From positions 1-20,926 of the IMG/VR virus record IMGVR_UViG_3300047562_002719: 20,926 nt of DNA; one strand, 5' to 3'. The stretch is from a virus. Positions 272 to 17,715 of this stretch are shown here, piece after piece; the first letter of the stretch is position 1, and each line of letters opens with the position of its first letter. The notes under the pieces were generated by a model that did no database searches, was not told the DNA's origin, and was given only the letters and a program-made list of their open reading frames with translations. Both the position numbers and the translations under genes were made by a program.

Positions 272-321
272 ATTATACCGCGAACTCGATTAAATTTGTC
301 ATAGTCTACCGTTCTTGTCAA
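272..321 (-). promoter_or_regulatory. Upstream tandem promoter of the leader, extended motif
   Basis: TATAAT lies at 272-277 and TTGACA at 316-321, with 38 nt between. This is too long for a simple -35/-10 pair. The interval contains CGGT, ACTA and CAAATTTA (the last at the usual -35 position), and the same elements with the same spacing occur in the promoter at 3843-3892. TATAAT is followed by GAGTCATCG, similar to the start region of the downstream promoter (CAGCCATCG). The two TATAAT boxes are 99 bp apart, reminiscent of rrn P1/P2. Confidence 0.6.
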
Positions 322-335
322 CTTCTTGCGTCACC

Positions 336-363
336 AAAAATTTCGGGGGACCTGAGTCCCCCG
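336..363 (-). terminator. Terminator of the rnh-side transcription unit
   Basis: On the minus strand an 8-bp stem CGGGGGAC / GTCCCCCG with a 4-nt TCAG loop is followed by GAAATTTTT-type sequence. The U-run starts three bases after the stem, so it is slightly imperfect. It closes the long leftward operon just before the promoters of the left-end leader. The hairpin at 15544-15563 has a near-identical core. Confidence 0.7.
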
Positions 364-393
364 TGATTCACTTTTTACCAGTGTGGGGAACCG

Positions 394-480
394 TTACGTC
401 ATCATGGGCTCAGAGATGGCGAATTTCGACCAGAGGTTCTGGCGATAAATTCTTCCTGTAAAATCTGTGCTACTTGACAT
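394..480 (-). CDS. Small late peptide ORF (28 aa), unknown
   Basis: This 28-codon ORF reads MSSSTDFTGRIYRQN... and ends ...SEPMMT. It starts with ATG at 480, eight bases after an AAAGGAG ribosome site, and stops at 394, about 30 bp before the terminator. A perfect T4-type late promoter octamer (498-505) lies just upstream. Its start site would give a 5' leader of roughly 12-15 nt that keeps the SD. I recognise no family. The tight promoter, SD, ORF and terminator arrangement is the main support; the peptide is otherwise unremarkable and could be a decayed gene end. Confidence 0.45.
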   Translation of the reverse strand: MSSSTDFTGRIYRQNLWSKFAISEPMMT

Positions 481-483
481 GGT

Positions 484-690
484 TCACTCCTTTCTTGTAT
501 TTATATCCAAATCAGCCTCATCTGAGCCTTTCCACAAAATATTTTTGTGGTCATCCTTCTCAGTTATGTAATACATATTGATGTCGAACCCATGCATCTC
601 GCAAGTATTCTTGACGCACAAGATCCCGCCGTTTAGGTCCTTAAACCAACCCATCTCGCGGCCTTCCTTAAACACCGAAACATGAGTCAT
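484..690 (-). CDS. Hypothetical protein (68 aa)
   Basis: This is a small soluble, charged protein with no recognised domain. The start overlaps the stop of the preceding gene (ATGA at 687-690), and AAGGGA lies upstream. The central part has two cysteines (GILCVKNTCEMHG) and a short aromatic segment (MYYITEKDD). Its last codons contain the TATAAATA late promoter for the 28-aa ORF, so the 3' end has two uses. Function is unknown. Confidence 0.7.
   Translation of the reverse strand: MTHVSVFKEGREMGWFKDLNGGILCVKNTCEMHGFDINMYYITEKDDHKNILWKGSDEADLDINTRKE
498..505 (-). promoter_or_regulatory. T4-type late promoter octamer TATAAATA
   Basis: The minus strand carries an exact TATAAATA, the late promoter of T4-like phages that is read by RNA polymerase with gp55, gp33 and the gp45 clamp. 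It is inside the 3' end of the 68-aa gene, with the 28-aa ORF 18 nt downstream and a terminator beyond. Transcription would therefore yield a very short late mRNA. Confidence 0.65.
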
Positions 691-1130
691 GCGCTAGCTT
701 CCCTTTTCTTCCTAGGAGCTGGAGGAGGCGGTGCAGGTATAAAACCATACTGCGCTACGACGTCAGCCTTAAGGTTCTTAAACAGCGAGGGTAAGGTTTG
801 ATCCTTGATAGCGATCATCAACTTAGCTTCGGAAGCGTGGAGGCTCTCGAGGAGTTGGATGAACAACGCTTCTTTACGAGTCTTAGCAAGCTCCTTCTCT
901 TTCGTGAAGATATACCACCTGCGGATCTCTTGTGTAAAGTTAGCAGGACTCATCCCAAGTGGAGCTTTATCTTCTTTGAACGGAGGAGTTCCTTCAGGCA
1001 AATCAAACTTCTTCTCAGGGATGAAAGCGTACTGGAAGAGTAGCTTGAGTGCGATGTTTTCTGTGTACTTCTTTAGGAGTGCTGGCTCTTTGTTGACCTC
1101 CTGCAGTATCTCGATCATGTATTTGCTCAT
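687..1130 (-). CDS. Conserved T4-like phage protein, DUF6433-like (147 aa)
   Basis: This protein begins MSKYMIEILQEVNK and contains LPEGTPPFK, a conserved TPANF-like segment (GMSPANFTQEIRR) and a C-terminal FIPAPPPPAPRKK tail. From memory these match a family widespread in marine T4-like phages (DUF6433). No enzymatic motif is visible. It is mostly helical and ends in a proline-rich basic tail. The start has AAGGA 6 nt upstream. It lies directly downstream of rnh, which suggests a link with replication, but that is position only. Confidence 0.8.
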   Translation of the reverse strand: MSKYMIEILQEVNKEPALLKKYTENIALKLLFQYAFIPEKKFDLPEGTPPFKEDKAPLGMSPANFTQEIRRWYIFTKEKELAKTRKEALFIQLLESLHASEAKLMIAIKDQTLPSLFKNLKADVVAQYGFIPAPPPPAPRKKREASA

Positions 1131-1139
1131 GTTGTTTCC

Positions 1140-2000
1140 TTAAAATTCTTCAACTTCATTCAACAGCATCCTGCATCGGTGCTTGATAAGGTAGTTCAGC
1201 ACTGAATTCTTGTCTCCAGCTGGCTTCTTTTCATACTCGGTAAGGATGCTTTCCTTTATATATTCAGGAATCATCGTGAAGTCGATGAGCATCTTGTTAC
1301 GAGCAAAGTTTGTGCGTTCTTCTTGGGTCTTGCATGCAGCATAACCACTCTTGACAAACTCTTCAAGCCTCTTCGAAGACATAGACTTTTGACGGGTGCC
1401 AGTCACGAACGTGTCATCAGGGCTCAAGATGTTTGGGATCCCATCATCACCAGCCTTGACGATGTGCTCCATGAGGTAGGCAGCAGGGTTCTTGCAGGTC
1501 ATCAGCTTCTTCATCACGGGGTTGAACTGCTTGACGTTGTCATACTTCTGTAGTTGCATGAAGTCTCCGTCAGACGAGATGATCATGACGTTTTCATGCA
1601 TGCCAAACTCTTGGGTCATATCAGTGAGGACCGCGATAACGTCATCTGCTTCGGCCTTCTCAACGTCGATGACTTTATACGGGAAGAACTTCTTAAGGTC
1701 TTCTCGCATCTCGTTCATCATCGAGAAGATAAGGTCCCAGTTGAGGTCAGAAGCTTCACGAGCCTTCTTTCGTCCAGCCTTATAGTACTGGAAAACTTCC
1801 TTCCTCCAATAGTTTCGACCATCACACGCGATCACGAGGTCACCAAAAACCTTATTGTACTTCTTCTTGTACGACTTGAGGGTAGACAAGATGACGTGTC
1901 TGATAAGGTCTTTCACGTCGTTTTCCGATTTGTTCTTCATATCGCTCTTGAACGCTAGGATTGAGCTGAGCGATAGTTGAGAGTAGTCAGCGATGATCAT
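1140..2000 (-). CDS. rnh: RNase H / 5'-3' exonuclease (FEN family)
   Basis: This is the T4 RNase H homologue, a flap-endonuclease-family 5' nuclease that removes lagging-strand primers. Metal-binding acids are visible in family order: D5 (IIADYS), D60 (IACDGR), E117/D119/D120 (EKAEADDVIAVL), D144/D146 (ISSDGDF) and D185/D186 (GDDGIP). The RKxxxYKAGRKK region after D60 fits the basic arch that grips flap DNA. At 286 aa it is slightly shorter than T4 RNase H (305 aa). ATG 2000 has AAGGA upstream, overlapping the end of the preceding gene. In T4, dsbA and rnh are neighbours; here two extra genes separate them. Confidence 0.95.
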   Translation of the reverse strand: MIIADYSQLSLSSILAFKSDMKNKSENDVKDLIRHVILSTLKSYKKKYNKVFGDLVIACDGRNYWRKEVFQYYKAGRKKAREASDLNWDLIFSMMNEMREDLKKFFPYKVIDVEKAEADDVIAVLTDMTQEFGMHENVMIISSDGDFMQLQKYDNVKQFNPVMKKLMTCKNPAAYLMEHIVKAGDDGIPNILSPDDTFVTGTRQKSMSSKRLEEFVKSGYAACKTQEERTNFARNKMLIDFTMIPEYIKESILTEYEKKPAGDKNSVLNYLIKHRCRMLLNEVEEF

Positions 2001-2008
2001 ACGATTCC

Positions 2009-3178
2009 TTAGATGGCTTTGAGGATGAGGGTGTCTTCGTTGATTCTACCATTGACAGCGGAATCTTTGGTCTTCAACTTGTCAAAGTACTGTGCGAAAG
2101 TCTTCTTCGTCATCCCTACGATCGTAGCCACCTCTTCGGGCTTTCGAAGGGTCTTCGACTTAGAGTCTTCGACCGAGTAGTTGATGATCGTAGTTCCCTT
2201 TACGGTCAACTTTTGGCCGCTCAAAGCACGGTAGACCTGAAGCTTCTTATACTTCGTGTTGAATGCCCACACTTCGGTCGAGTCAACGAGGGTCGAAGGG
2301 TGAACAGACTTGACACCAAGCTCAGTGGATTCGGCCATGTACTTGACCTTCGAAGCCACCACGGTAGCAGGTTTTACCTTGGTTGCACGAGGCTTGCGAG
2401 GAGCCTTTGCCAAGACACCATGCTGAGCGCAGATGGTTGAGATCGACTTGTAAACTTCGAGTAGCTTCTTGAGTTTAACCTTCTTGATGTTAGACCAACC
2501 TTCAACGAGTTGCTTATCGGTACCCTTAAGGACAAGCTCGATCTCTTCGATCGCTTTCACAAACTTTTGAGGGATGACCTTAGCCTCAGAAGAGGAAACG
2601 TTAGCAGACTTCAGGTACGACTCGAGGTCAAAGGGTTTATCATGCTTCACGAAGTCATCGATCATGCCCATGATCTCGCCTGCATGGGTATGAGTAGCTT
2701 CCTTTTGCTTGGTGACCTTAGGGGTAGGTTGCTTCTCTTGAGCTACCACCTTAACGATCGAGACGGTGTTGTTTTCCGAGATGTCGATCAGGTCCTTGAT
2801 ACGCTTTTCAATGAAGTCGAGTTCATTGTCTTCGAGAGGTTGATCCCTTTCGAGTAGACGAATGATGACACCAAGTGAAGAGAACTCATAGTCCTTGACA
2901 TCTTCGAGCTTCTTGACAAGAGCCTTATCGACCTTAGCGATGTACTGTAGAGCCCACTTCTTCTTGGTCTTGTTGTCCTCAGCTGTATTGTAGTGATTCA
3001 ATGCCCTGATGAGGTCAGCACGATAGTTGAGAGGGTTGATGGTCGGTTCACCGAAACCCTTGCCAACCCCGAACACAGCTGCGGCCTTCGTAGCGGCTTC
3101 GCGACGCTTGATGGCACGCTTCTCGCGTTGGGTTGGCTTTTCTTCCGTCTTTGCCATAGATGTTCCAGCCTTTTTCAT
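2009..3178 (-). CDS. Hypothetical lysine-rich protein (389 aa)
   Basis: I do not recognise this protein. It is very basic at the N-terminus (REKRAIKRREAATK) with a mixed charged helical middle. A basic linker at about 259-270 (APRKPRATKVKP) separates this from a C-terminal part of about 110 residues. The C-terminal PEEVATIVGMTKKTFAQYF stretch looks like a helix-turn-helix. That suggests nucleic-acid binding, but it is inference. The first ATG (3178) has only a weak SD; ATG 3157 (MAKTEEK...) is an alternative start. It is cotranscribed between the 205-aa gene and rnh. Confidence 0.75.
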   Translation of the reverse strand: MKKAGTSMAKTEEKPTQREKRAIKRREAATKAAAVFGVGKGFGEPTINPLNYRADLIRALNHYNTAEDNKTKKKWALQYIAKVDKALVKKLEDVKDYEFSSLGVIIRLLERDQPLEDNELDFIEKRIKDLIDISENNTVSIVKVVAQEKQPTPKVTKQKEATHTHAGEIMGMIDDFVKHDKPFDLESYLKSANVSSSEAKVIPQKFVKAIEEIELVLKGTDKQLVEGWSNIKKVKLKKLLEVYKSISTICAQHGVLAKAPRKPRATKVKPATVVASKVKYMAESTELGVKSVHPSTLVDSTEVWAFNTKYKKLQVYRALSGQKLTVKGTTIINYSVEDSKSKTLRKPEEVATIVGMTKKTFAQYFDKLKTKDSAVNGRINEDTLILKAI

Positions 3179-3190
3179 TTTTCAAACTTT

Positions 3191-3808
3191 TCACAGATAA
3201 GACATCTGCTTGTGCGACAGAGGAGTAGCGAACTTGGGGTTCGGGTTGGTCGCCCAAGACATAACTTGATCGCGCATGCTCTTGCGGAAACCGCTGCGGA
3301 GATTAGCGGTAACCAACTTCTTGACACCTTGCCAAGCACTGTGACCAACAGCCTCACGGAGGCGTTGGACCTGACCGCGATTCAGACCGACCTTACGGCC
3401 GACGTCAGCGTCAGCCTGGCGAGCACGCCGACGAGCCAACACTTCGTTTCGGCGATTTTGGTATTCCTTGTACGCTTCGTATTCAGCACGAACCTCGGGA
3501 GTGGCGTCGACGCACGAGTTGTAGCAGGGATACGACCAACCGCGAGTCGTAGCGAACATGATCTCGTGAGGACGCTTAGTGACAGGATCCCACACAGTCA
3601 TGTAGAAGTCGCTGTCATCTCGCATGTTCCGCTCACGATCCATCAAGCACAGGCCGCGATGCGTGATGTACAAGGTGTCACCCTGACGGCTGTCGTTCAT
3701 GCCGTTGGTACCCGGCAGCGGGCAGTATTCACCTTCATGGAATTCGGTGCGCAGAGTACGTTGACCGTTGGCGTAGTTGTACGAAGAACCCATGTTGATG
3801 ATAGCCAC
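3191..3808 (-). CDS. Hypothetical protein with host-like codon use (205 aa)
   Basis: I assign no family. The N-terminal 110 residues look globular (GWSYPCYNSC, TVWDPVTKRP). The C-terminal half is arginine-rich and helical (RRNEVLARRRARQADAD), likely to bind nucleic acid. Codon choice is GC-rich and resembles strongly expressed enterobacterial genes (CTG, CCG, GGT, ACC, CGT), unlike the AT-leaning flanking genes. The start is GTG 3808, seven bases after GGAG. A strong TATAAT promoter (3843-3892) with a short leader of about 28 nt serves it. High early expression or recent acquisition is inferred. Confidence 0.8.
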   Translation of the reverse strand: MAIINMGSSYNYANGQRTLRTEFHEGEYCPLPGTNGMNDSRQGDTLYITHRGLCLMDRERNMRDDSDFYMTVWDPVTKRPHEIMFATTRGWSYPCYNSCVDATPEVRAEYEAYKEYQNRRNEVLARRRARQADADVGRKVGLNRGQVQRLREAVGHSAWQGVKKLVTANLRSGFRKSMRDQVMSWATNPNPKFATPLSHKQMSYL

Positions 3809-3842
3809 TTACTTACTCCGTCGTTTGTTTGCCGATGGGTCC

Positions 3843-3892
3843 ATTATACACCTGCTGCGAATAAATTTGCGGTAGTACACCGCCTCGGTCAA
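3843..3892 (-). promoter_or_regulatory. Strong promoter, same extended class as 272-321
   Basis: On the minus strand TATAAT (3843-3848) is preceded by CAAATTTA near -35, then ACTA, CGGT and TTGACC (3887-3892) further up. The promoter at 272-321 has the same elements at the same distances: 38 nt between TTGAC and TATAAT in both, and 32 of 50 positions identical. TTGACC overlaps the dsbA stop codon. The expected start near 3836 gives a short leader to the GTG start at 3808. Confidence 0.65.
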
Positions 3893-4164
3893 CTATTAGT
3901 GTGTTCGCCGCTTTGGAGGTTCACCACGGTCTCGTAGAGTTCCTCAAACTCCTCGAACTCTTGCTGTTCAAGGTTGTAAGACTGCTTGTGGTAGATCTTA
4001 GCCATCTTGTTCAAGGTGCGCTTCGGGATCTCGTAGGTCTTAGAATACTCTTTGATCGCTTCACGGATCAAGTCCTTTTCTGCCGCGATACGAGTCATGC
4101 TATTTGAAACCTCTTGAAGCATCTCTCGAATCTTCTTGCGATCTGCGGGGGAAGAAATACTCAT
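3889..4164 (-). CDS. dsbA: DsbA-like dsDNA-binding protein, late transcription
   Basis: This 91-aa protein is similar in length and pattern to T4 DsbA, a small double-stranded DNA-binding protein that stimulates late transcription. The clearest match is the C-terminal half: KMAKIYHKQ, then QEFEEFEELYETVV, against T4 LLALYHK...EEVVELYDTVF. The N-terminal half is a predicted helix with basic residues. ATG 4164 has AAGGA 10 nt upstream. The nearby rnh gene supports the call, since the two are neighbours in T4. Confidence 0.85.
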   Translation of the reverse strand: MSISSPADRKKIREMLQEVSNSMTRIAAEKDLIREAIKEYSKTYEIPKRTLNKMAKIYHKQSYNLEQQEFEEFEELYETVVNLQSGEHTNS

Positions 4165-6548: not shown

Positions 6549-7547
6549 TTATACGCCCCAGACTTCCTCCCAGGAGCCGCTTAAAGCTCCCTTCGCATAG
6601 TCGGTAGCTCTGTTTTCGAAGAAGTTTGTATGGGTCGGAGCGTTGATCATCTCTTCGACCCATGGCAACGGGTTAGTTTTTACCTTCATGATGCCCTTTA
6701 GGCCAAGAGAGATAAGGCGACGATCAGTGATATAACGAATGTAGCGTTTAACGTCGTCAGCACTAAGACCGTCCATAGATCCGAGTTTGAAAGCCAAGTC
6801 AATGAATTTATCTTCAAGTTCAACCATTCGTTCAGCGATCTGATAGATCTTTGACTTGAGTTCATCGTTCCAGATCTCCTTATTCTCTTCAACGTAAGTC
6901 CTAAAGAGCTTGATCATAGACTCGGCATGCATGGTTTCATCTACGATGGACCAAGTTACGATCTGACCCATCCCACGCATCTTACCAGTACGCGGGAAGT
7001 TCAACAGCATGATGAATGACGAGAACAACTGCATGCCTTCGGTGAAGGCAGAGAACAACGCGATGTTCTCTGCGATAGACGACTCGTTAGCTGTCAGGTT
7101 AGACCTATTCAAGATGTAGTCATGTTTATCACGCATCTCTTGGTACTCTAAGAACTCGTTGTATGTAGTCTCAGGCATACCAAGAGTTTCGATGAGGTGA
7201 CTATACGCCGCGATATGGAGAGCTTCACGAGCAGCGAATCCTGCAAGCATCATGCGAACTTCAGGCTGTGGGAAGTGAGGAAGGTAGTTGTTGACATAAC
7301 CTCCCGCAACATCGATGTCACCTTGAGTGAAGAACCTAAAGATGTGGGTTAGAAACTTCTTTTCACTGTCAGTAAGCTTATTCTTCCAGTCTTTGACGTC
7401 CTCGATCATAGGGACTTCAGAATGAAGCCAATGGGATTGTTCGTGTTTTAACCATGCCTCATAAAATTGAGGATATTTAAACGGTTTGAAGTAGTCTCTT
7501 TTATCAGTCAATTTTAATTGCTTGAAATGTTTTGAATTTTTAAGCAT
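6549..7547 (-). CDS. nrdB: Ribonucleotide reductase class I beta subunit
   Basis: This is the radical-generating subunit that works with NrdA to make deoxyribonucleotides. Di-iron ligands follow the family: D77 in TQGDIDV, E108 and H111 with the radical tyrosine Y115 (REALHIAAY), E170 (FTEGMQL), and E204/H207 (DETMHAE). Length 332 aa is normal for phage. The first 35 or so codons are markedly more AT-rich than the rest and resemble the upstream homing endonuclease. A second, orphan copy of the N-terminus lies at 8290-8352. ATG 7547 follows AGGAAA and overlaps the endonuclease stop. Confidence 0.95.
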   Translation of the reverse strand: MLKNSKHFKQLKLTDKRDYFKPFKYPQFYEAWLKHEQSHWLHSEVPMIEDVKDWKNKLTDSEKKFLTHIFRFFTQGDIDVAGGYVNNYLPHFPQPEVRMMLAGFAAREALHIAAYSHLIETLGMPETTYNEFLEYQEMRDKHDYILNRSNLTANESSIAENIALFSAFTEGMQLFSSFIMLLNFPRTGKMRGMGQIVTWSIVDETMHAESMIKLFRTYVEENKEIWNDELKSKIYQIAERMVELEDKFIDLAFKLGSMDGLSADDVKRYIRYITDRRLISLGLKGIMKVKTNPLPWVEEMINAPTHTNFFENRATDYAKGALSGSWEEVWGV

Positions 7548-8215
7548 TATTTTTCCTATTATGATTCCAATGTGGGTTTAAACGACCTTTAGCCCAACCT
7601 TCAGGTGCTTCATGTAGCATTTTACACTCTATTCCATTATTGTACCAACTTTTTCCTTTTACGTATGTATTTCCCTTTGAAATTTCCGCCCTTTTTCTTT
7701 TTATCTCTGGGGAATTCATTTTTTCCTTATGTCTTTCTTTTATAGTAGAATCATACATTGGATTATTTGACGTCATTCTTTCTGAATAGGATTTTCTTTT
7801 TTCGAGAGGCATAACATATTTTTCATAAACTCTAGTTTTTCTTGTTTTTGAACCCTTTTCATGAGCTTCATCCATTAGTCCATTTTCCCATCTATATTTT
7901 AGTCTCTTAGCTATTCTAGATTTTTCTTCTTCATCGTGTAATATTCCTGGGGTTGCGATTAAACATTATTTGTAAAAATTTTTCTTTTCCAAAGATTCTA
8001 AATATTCTATTCAACAATTTAGATTCATATTCTCTAGCATCTTCTCTTGGTTTTGTATAAACTACTTCAAAATTTTCTTTGTTTTCCAGAACGTATTTAG
8101 AAGAGGAAAAATATGTTTTCCAAAGATTGGATGGATTAGACTTTTTTCCGTATTGAACACCGATGTAATATTGACCAGTTAATTTATTGCGTAATTTGTA
8201 AATATATGGTTGCAT
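7540..8215 (-). pseudogene. GIY-YIG homing endonuclease gene, frameshifted
   Basis: The 5' reading frame (8215-7931) encodes a GIY-YIG domain (YIYKLRN...YYIGVQYG, with AREYESKLLNR holding the likely catalytic acid). The 3' frame gives DEEEKSRIAKRLKYRW, a NUMOD3-like SERMTSNNPMYD segment and the DNA-binding tail WYNNGIECKMLHEAPEGW. The frames differ by one base. Removing one T near 7962 would join them as ...FLQIMLIATPGIL... into a single protein of about 224 aa, typical of Seg/Mob-type enzymes. Base composition is far more AT-rich than the flanks. It is inserted in the 5' end of nrdB. An inactive gene is likely; programmed frameshifting or a sequencing error cannot be excluded. Confidence 0.85.
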
Positions 8216-14234: not shown

Positions 14235-14638
14235 TTCTTTGCTGCCTTATCATGTGCGATCACAAACTCTTCAGGTATCTCGCACCTATCGTTATACTTA
14301 ACGATCTCTCGATCTACATACTGGATTATGTCGTTGCCCTTCGTCTTATAGTATTCCTTCTTGACTACGACCTTCTCTACTATCTTAACGTTTTCTACAG
14401 CAGCCTTAGCTTCAGCTTCGGCTAAATCTTTCTCTAACTTAGCTAACTTAAGCTTCCATTCCTTTTCATTGTGGATGACACCACTCATGAAAAGCCCGAT
14501 AGCTATCAAAGATATCGATGCTGCTTGTATCAAAGACCTATAAGTGAATGGGAAGAATCTTGCTATCGCAAGACCAACTATACCCGCACCAAGTATACTA
14601 TAGAATACCCAATCCGGGATAAAGTTGATTATGTTCAC
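14231..14638 (-). CDS. i-spanin inner-membrane protein
   Basis: Two N-terminal hydrophobic segments (about 8-28 and 35-54) precede a periplasmic coiled coil (about 57-95, KLAKLEKDLAEAEAKAAVE). A basic C-terminal tail follows. This layout plus the overlap with the lipoprotein gene fits an i-spanin, although classical Rz has one membrane segment. It starts with GTG 14638, five bases after AAGG and overlapping the upstream stop (GTGA). Confidence 0.7.
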   Translation of the reverse strand: MNIINFIPDWVFYSILGAGIVGLAIARFFPFTYRSLIQAASISLIAIGLFMSGVIHNEKEWKLKLAKLEKDLAEAEAKAAVENVKIVEKVVVKKEYYKTKGNDIIQYVDREIVKYNDRCEIPEEFVIAHDKAAKK

Positions 14639-16392: not shown

Positions 16393-17715
16393 TTAAGCGT
16401 TGTCAGGGTTATGCTTTTCAGCATGAACATCATGATCTTTGCTAATCTTCTTCAGATGACCTGGATCGATTTTGTTCGTATGAACCAATGGTTTATTATC
16501 ACTATAATGTGAATGTGGCATCTTGCTAATACTATGAACAACCGTGCCAGATGCATCTCTGATGTCACGGAATGAAGCACCATCATGGTCATGGTCAGTA
16601 GTCGCTGTGTACTTATGTCCATCAACTTCATGGTGAGTAACAATCCTGGTATGAGTATCACCATAAGCGGATGCACCTTTATGGCGACCAGTCACTACTG
16701 GTTTACCAACGATAGACTCTTCTAGTTCGACTTCTTCAGGTAATTTACTTTTAGGTCCGGTTATTTTAGCCTTGGACTTAAGAGTAGCCTTTAGGAATCG
16801 TTGAGATGCTCCTGCGCGATGGGCAAGTTCATCTCTATTATAGTTGCCACTTTCTTTACCGTCTCTTCCGAGTATGACTTTCCTTGGTGCCTCTTCATCA
16901 TCGTCATGAGCACTGCTGCGCCAAGTTTTGCCTTCTAGGTCATCCCGACGCCATTTAGCAGCTTCCGTTACATCAAGCTCGACTTCTTCAGGTAATTTAC
17001 CTTTAGGGCCGGTGATAACGCCTCCAAACCCCGCTTTAGATTTGGACTTAAGCATATGCTTTAAGTGCTGTTGAGCTGATATTTCCGATTTTGTAGGCAC
17101 TCCCTTTTTGGTCATGCGCTTATTCATATCAGCCTTTGAGCGGTAATTGCCTGGACGATGTGAGAGTTCATCTTGGTCGTAGTTATCAACGTCTTTACCA
17201 TCTCTTCCAAGTATGATTTTGTCGGGTGACATTTCACCATCGTCCCAGTCTCTACTACGCCAAGTTTTGCCTTCTAGATCATCTCGACGCCATTTAGCAG
17301 CTTCATCGAGCTCTACTTCCTCTACGCTCTCTGACATCGCAACTAGCGTCTCTTCATCTAGGGTTTCTAGAAAAGTATCGATATCCTCTTCATTCTCAAG
17401 CTGCTCGAGGATCTCAAATGCTTCAGCAACCTTTCTCTTGGTGTAAGTACCATACTTTCCAGGAGGACGACCACGCCCTCTCTTTACTGCTGGTTCTGCT
17501 GGTTTAGTTGGCTCTGCAGCTTCGTCGTCTTTATCAAACCTACGAGTTGCAATGACTCCTGTAGCAGTCGTCTTGATATCGTGACGATTTCCCTTAGTCA
17601 TGGTACCAGGTTTAGCTTTCGCGCTACGATCGGTATCGGGGAAAGCCTTCTTATATTCAGGAGTTCCTGGCCATAGGACGCCAGCTTCCTGCATAAGTTC
17701 TTTAAATGTCTTCAT
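16393..17715 (-). CDS. Modular charged protein with AT-hook and tandem repeat (440 aa)
   Basis: No single family is recognised. It starts MKTFKELMQEAG. Residues 78-89 (VKRGRGRPPGKYG region) match an AT-hook, which binds the minor groove of AT-rich DNA. Two imperfect repeats follow, beginning EEVELDEAAKWRRDDLEGK (132) and EEVELDVTEAAKWRRDDL (243), each with KIILGRDGK or KVILGRDGK and DEL.HR. A third EEVELEES begins a histidine-rich C-terminal module (DHDHDG, HSHYSDN). The L-x-E linkers resemble T4 prohead-protease sites. A capsid-internal, DNA-contacting protein is inferred. Confidence 0.7.
   Translation of the reverse strand: MKTFKELMQEAGVLWPGTPEYKKAFPDTDRSAKAKPGTMTKGNRHDIKTTATGVIATRRFDKDDEAAEPTKPAEPAVKRGRGRPPGKYGTYTKRKVAEAFEILEQLENEEDIDTFLETLDEETLVAMSESVEEVELDEAAKWRRDDLEGKTWRSRDWDDGEMSPDKIILGRDGKDVDNYDQDELSHRPGNYRSKADMNKRMTKKGVPTKSEISAQQHLKHMLKSKSKAGFGGVITGPKGKLPEEVELDVTEAAKWRRDDLEGKTWRSSAHDDDEEAPRKVILGRDGKESGNYNRDELAHRAGASQRFLKATLKSKAKITGPKSKLPEEVELEESIVGKPVVTGRHKGASAYGDTHTRIVTHHEVDGHKYTATTDHDHDGASFRDIRDASGTVVHSISKMPHSHYSDNKPLVHTNKIDPGHLKKISKDHDVHAEKHNPDNA
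16735..17322 (-). repeat. Two tandem coding repeats in the 440-aa gene
   Basis: Repeat 1 covers about 17322-16990 and repeat 2 about 16989-16735. Both encode the AAKWRRDDLEGKTWRS motif, an acidic stretch, ILGRDGK, NY-DEL-HR, and a KSK-ITGPK-KLPEEVEL ending. The protein identity is high but the spacing differs (111 against 85 residues), so repeat 2 has lost an internal segment. The DNA copies have diverged. Confidence 0.75.

Follow-up and report, generated by a model that had tools for sequence, protein, structure and literature searches.

The window analyzed here, a stretch of 20,926 bases, is the entire record of a virus contig, and all searches within the genome cover these 20.9 kb only. 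The likely genes of the record lie on the minus strand throughout and include those for an rnh-type exonuclease, DsbA, a SegE-type endonuclease, ribonucleotide reductase (assigned via its relatives), ThyX, an endolysin and head proteins, a combination that identifies the virus as a T4-like phage. A megablast search of 50,697 phage records yielded no close phage genome, and no relatives of the rnh-type exonuclease were found in GTDB. The features of interest are two promoters, denoted A and B, together with a third, C (Table 1). The first gene behind B encodes a 205-aa protein with 31-45% identity to proteins of large Burkholderia and Caulobacter phages and of Salmonella phages, and 75% identity to its counterpart in a 90-kb contig (L003). 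Because its relatives reside in these other phages, yet the gene lies here inside the order dsbA-389-aa gene-rnh of T4-like phages, it is probably a horizontally moving gene.

Several other parts of the record deserve mention in their own right. The AT-rich region 7540-8215, which adjoins nrdB, contains two small ORFs, the second of which resembles, by eye, the start of a GIY-YIG homing endonuclease but has no Pfam match; this region is perhaps the remnant of a mobile element. The gene for a 440-aa protein (16393-17715) contains internal direct repeats at 16715-17300, with up to 47 of 50 bases identical. A perfect T4 late promoter sequence, TATAAATA, is located at 498-505 (minus strand), within the 3' end of the ORF 484-690, and is followed by AAGGAG and a 28-aa ORF (394-480).

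Table 1. Features of the promoter regions and the adjacent genes
Feature	Position	Strand	Remarks
GCTCTTTAACA, boxA-like (bacterial rRNA operons)	135-145	minus	in the non-coding leader downstream of A and C
CATCG of C	164-168	minus	at the presumed start
Promoter C	173-178	minus	its TATAAT follows that of A at 99 bp; core and start region shared with A
CATCG of A	263-267	minus	at the presumed start
Promoter A, AGTTGACAAGAACGGTAGACTATGACAAATTTAATCGAGTTCGCGGTATAAT	272-323	minus	non-coding on either side
CAAATTTA box of A	291-298	minus	-33 to -26 if TATAAT is -12 to -7
Terminator-like hairpin, CGGGGGACTCAGGTCCCCCG, then AAATTTTT	344-363	minus	directly upstream of A; z -2.8
rnh-type exonuclease	1140-2000	minus	third gene after B
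389-aa protein, phrog_11903	2009-3178	minus	second gene after B; promoter slot conserved in relatives
205-aa protein, phrog_30881, function not known	3191-3808	minus	directly behind B; GGAG in its 27-nt leader
CATCG of B	3833-3837	minus	at the presumed start, one base farther from TATAAT
Promoter B, AGTTGACCGAGGCGGTGTACTACCGCAAATTTATTCGCAGCAGGTGTATAAT	3843-3894	minus	between dsbA and the 205-aa gene
CAAATTTA box of B	3862-3869	minus	same relative position as in A
dsbA (T4-type DNA-binding transcription protein)	3889-4164	minus	upstream of promoter B; TGA stop overlaps TTGAC

The original prediction held that A and B align without gaps over 50 bases, and comparison of 321-272 with 3892-3843 confirms this, with 32 of the 50 bases identical and all the named sequence blocks present in both 50-mers; the strand, which had not been given, is the minus strand in both cases. 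The match continues for 2 bases upstream (AGTTGAC) and for 1 base beyond TATAAT but is limited to ~53 bases, the 60-base flanks sharing 23 positions upstream and 15 downstream, and it is clustered in blocks, with runs of 8, 7, 5 and 4 bases. If TATAAT (277-272 in A, 3848-3843 in B) is assumed to occupy -12 to -7, the shared blocks are TTGAC at -56 to -52, CGGT at -46 to -43, ACTA at -40 to -37, CAAATTTA at -33 to -26 and TCG at -24 to -22. In B, the dsbA frame closes with the TTGA of TTGAC, its TGA stop codon occupying 3891-3889; this block is therefore partly coding sequence and weighs less than the others. When the 20.9-kb record was scanned for all blocks with up to 3 mismatches, only A and B were found.

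Taken by itself, the value of 32 out of 50 is not striking because nine direct-repeat diagonals in a window-wide ungapped comparison do as well (at least 32 of 50), some of these being coding repeats. The picture changes when the comparison is restricted to intergenic sequence, where A and B form the best pair of 158,438 comparisons of 50-mers (mean 12.8, s.d. 3.1), or is anchored on TATAAT, where 26 of the 44 upstream bases are identical (binomial p 3e-6, or E about 8e-5 when all 28 pairings of TATAAT sites are allowed for; counted empirically, same-strand pairs of any kind reach this level at a rate of 9e-6). Anchored in this manner, the likeness between A and B is far beyond chance.

Promoter C, which was overlooked in the original prediction, is a partial member of the same set. 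Aligned on TATAAT, it shares 31 of 50 bases with A (199-150 versus 298-249), and, with TATAAT left out, 23 of 41 (shuffle p 5.5e-5), but it lacks TTGAC, CGGT, ACTA and CAAATTTA. Common to A, B and C is GTATAATnAn(1-2)CATCG, in which CATCG begins 4 or 5 bases after TATAAT, with its A 6 or 7 bases after, at the expected start of transcription. The 20.9 kb contain two full members (A and B) and one partial member (C). A fourth intergenic TATAAT, that of promoter D (12187-12182, before thyX), was considered as a further member but is unrelated to A and B.

Between A and C and the end of the window, no noteworthy gene is present, and the product of the leader lies past the window end. This phage leader, non-coding and situated behind the tandem promoters A and C, contains a sequence that resembles boxA, the antitermination signal of rRNA operons, and that is expected 0.02 times in the window by chance. 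A truncated tRNA suspected by eye at the left end of the window is supported by neither ARAGORN nor Rfam. On the other side of A, the strong terminator-like hairpin at 363-344 would insulate the promoter from the rnh operon.

What the two full promoters lack is a conventional -35 element at 16-18 bp. The spacer between TTGAC and TATAAT is 39 bp long in both, so TTGAC cannot be the -35 of TATAAT, and a consensus scan detects no -35/-10 pair with a spacer of 16-18 bp at either site. Scoring of 41,792 sites with a sigma70 weight matrix (textbook consensus frequencies) puts A at the top of the window, via ATGACA at a spacer of 19 bp, so that this promoter may work without an activator; B, scored in the same way, ranks only 307th. 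Neither promoter matches the T4 late type: at both, TATAATG is found where a T4 late promoter needs TATAAATA at -13 to -6.

Further copies, for which the original prediction had proposed to search relatives, did not emerge. Four versions of the motif were run as exact patterns against IMG/VR and one against the GTDB genomes; they returned nothing, or matches that lacked the remaining blocks and came mainly from AT-rich DNA. Among 177 related loci collected in four protein-guided scans, the most similar syntenic ones are ~50% identical in rnh and reach 74-83% for the reductase, and consensus scoring of all the loci never rose above the level of shuffled motifs; the sole 25/32 match came from a locus that had been retrieved with its own pattern. 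Models of MotA and AsiA gave no matches in 12 relative records, a result that says little because most of these records are fragments and the control genomes were silent as well.

The TATAAT-anchored comparison of the relatives reveals, in many of the syntenic T4-like phages, private, self-similar promoter families. One relative (G001) has 12 copies of GTGTACATTAATT-N11-TATAAT in 45 kb, with none in the reversed control; another (L007) has a TTGACA promoter family with 7 sites; and five more (L024, L077, L017, L032 and L127) likewise have families of their own, with promoter stretches of ~60 bp closely alike at several places in L077, L017 and L032. The slot of B, before the 389-aa or the 205-aa gene, is occupied in L011, L007, L005, L072 and L003 by a promoter whose -35 is a regular one, 17-18 bp from the -10, and in the first two of these, the same promoter family also occurs between rnh and tRNA genes. 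Since the relatives carry their own families in the same slots, a promoter class shared by A and B is to be expected, and what is distinctive of A and B compared with the promoters of the relatives is the missing -35. Another T4-like phage (L038) shows a long promoter motif, GCATGTACTTATT...AGAGTAA..TAG.CCTATAAT, at 14510-14558 and 16609-16658, with exactly two occurrences in its 133-kb record.

A private family of early or middle promoters is the ordinary reading of these observations because each of the syntenic T4-like relatives has its own family. The phage promoter class proposed in the original prediction is supported by the above-chance likeness, by the location of the sites before an operon and a non-coding leader, and by the slot and the private families of the relatives. 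The existence of such a family is, as such, likely. The more specific reading that we favor, with a probability of roughly 0.45, is that A and B, joined in part by C, form a private family in which CAAATTTA replaces the -35, probably via a phage factor; two full copies in a single 20.9-kb fragment, the high sigma70 score of A and the ordinary -35 that the relatives have in the slot of B count against it. Under the mechanism we propose, the host RNA polymerase with sigma70 would open the DNA at the perfect TATAAT and start transcription at the A of CATCG; CAAATTTA at -33 to -26 would stand in for the missing -35, with the CGGT..ACTA blocks at -46 to -37 assisting, and would most likely be where a phage-encoded factor acting like MotA of T4 binds. 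B would then drive the 205-aa gene, the 389-aa gene and rnh, and A, together with C, the leader with the boxA-like sequence at the edge of the window. We infer activity for both promoters, a common factor that reads the two, and an activating role for this factor. The last point is a tentative one: the activator site that the original prediction suggested around CAAATTTA is compatible in position, which is that of the MotA box of T4, but no relative of MotA or AsiA came to light in the 12 relative records and no further copies of the motif in the sequences searched. That the blocks are read by an activator unrelated to MotA, which would recognize CAAATTTA and CGGT..ACTA and represent an independent case of sigma appropriation, we consider unlikely.

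A serious rival, albeit somewhat unlikely in our estimate, does without any phage factor and regards each site as two overlapping tandem sigma70 promoters, P1 (TTGAC(A/C)-N17-CAAATT) and P2, the TATAAT 21 bp downstream. TTGAC would be kept as the -35 of P1 and CAAATT as its weak -10, which is attractive inasmuch as the spacing is exactly 17 bp in both A and B, CAAATT has the two bases that matter most in a -10, the A at position 2 and the T at position 6, P1 ranks 25th (A) and 111th (B) of the 41,792 sites, and the relatives have TTGACA-N17-TATAAT in the slot of B. However, CAAATT matches at 3 of 6 positions only, CGGT, ACTA and the final two bases, TA, of CAAATTTA are left unaccounted for, the TTGA of B doubles as the end of dsbA, and P2 in B is still devoid of a -35.

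The other alternatives bear on the origin of the likeness or on a different kind of reader. The original statement that ancestry does not explain the likeness of A and B is too strong because a promoter cassette can be duplicated while the DNA that it transcribes is left behind. A and B could be copies of one cassette that was spread by recombination and has since drifted, with no single protein reading them, and both the closely similar ~60-bp stretches in three of the relatives and the hairpin directly ahead of A are compatible with this, as are the PeSL cassettes reported for T4-like phages, as cited in PMC4503421. Nevertheless, the matches are block-wise with flanks near background, a pattern more suggestive of selection than of evenly spread drift, and the hairpin of B lies within the promoter, not ahead of it, so that we regard this scenario as quite unlikely. 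An operator centered near -40, in which a dimeric protein, repressor or activator, would recognize an inverted repeat and so control both operons, could account for the perfect 5-base inverted repeat GCGGT...ACCGC in B and for the CGGTAG and CTA that A retains, the ideal form GCGGTAG-A-CTACCGC being matched at 13 of 15 positions in B and 11 of 15 in A. The right half of the repeat is, however, broken in A, there are only two sites, the ideal form is drawn from the very data to be explained, and CAAATTTA falls outside the repeat; this interpretation appears improbable. Finally, that two unrelated promoters look alike by chance could be argued from the unanchored matches on about nine diagonals and from the lack of further copies of the motif in the record, IMG/VR, the GTDB genomes and the related loci, but the anchored E-value, the top rank of the A-B pair among all intergenic pairs and the CATCG independently shared with C make this highly improbable.

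As the comparison with the relatives shows, many phages of this group possess a promoter family of their own, which can help to assign contigs to a common genome and to predict their operons. Among the known systems, the PeSL cassettes of T4-type phages (early promoter plus stem-loop), as far as the citation in PMC4503421 goes, resemble the present case in that A is directly behind a terminator-like hairpin and similar promoter DNA occurs at two unrelated genes, but differ in that the hairpin of B overlaps the promoter, and the mobility of A and B is only putative. T4-like phages have genome-specific early consensus sequences, with early promoters before tRNA genes (PMC1524935). Like these, A and B are long and alike within one genome, of which 20.9 kb yield two full members and a partial one, and they are located before putative early genes and a putative stable-RNA region, in the slots used by the relatives. 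The early promoters, however, have a -35 (GTTTAC, GTGTAC or TTGACA) with a spacer of 17-18 bp, and in this respect A and B differ from them. The T4 middle promoters, in which the MotA box occupies -35 to -26 when 13 bp upstream of the -10 (PMC2988021) and which conform to the consensus (a/t)(a/t)(a/t)TGCTTtA-N(11-13)-TataAT (PMC1524935), share with A and B a perfect TATAAT and a conserved AT-rich box 13 bp upstream. The middle promoters also lack a -35; A and B have none at 16-18 bp, but A has ATGACA at 19 bp. At the position of the MotA box, A and B have CGCAAATTTA and GACAAATTTA, respectively: the place fits, and TTTA coincides with the last bases of the consensus, but this is all that agrees, the core being AAATTTA as opposed to TGCTTTA, so that the two differ from the MotA consensus. 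The conserved blocks of A and B also extend farther, to -56, and the models of MotA and AsiA gave no match in the 12 relative records. Given that MotA is absent in three of five T4-like phages, some of which have AsiA without MotA (PMC1524935), a phage with an activator other than MotA is not far-fetched. Many T4-like phages are devoid of MotA, and a -35-less promoter family with a fixed box would provide a handle for finding such activators.
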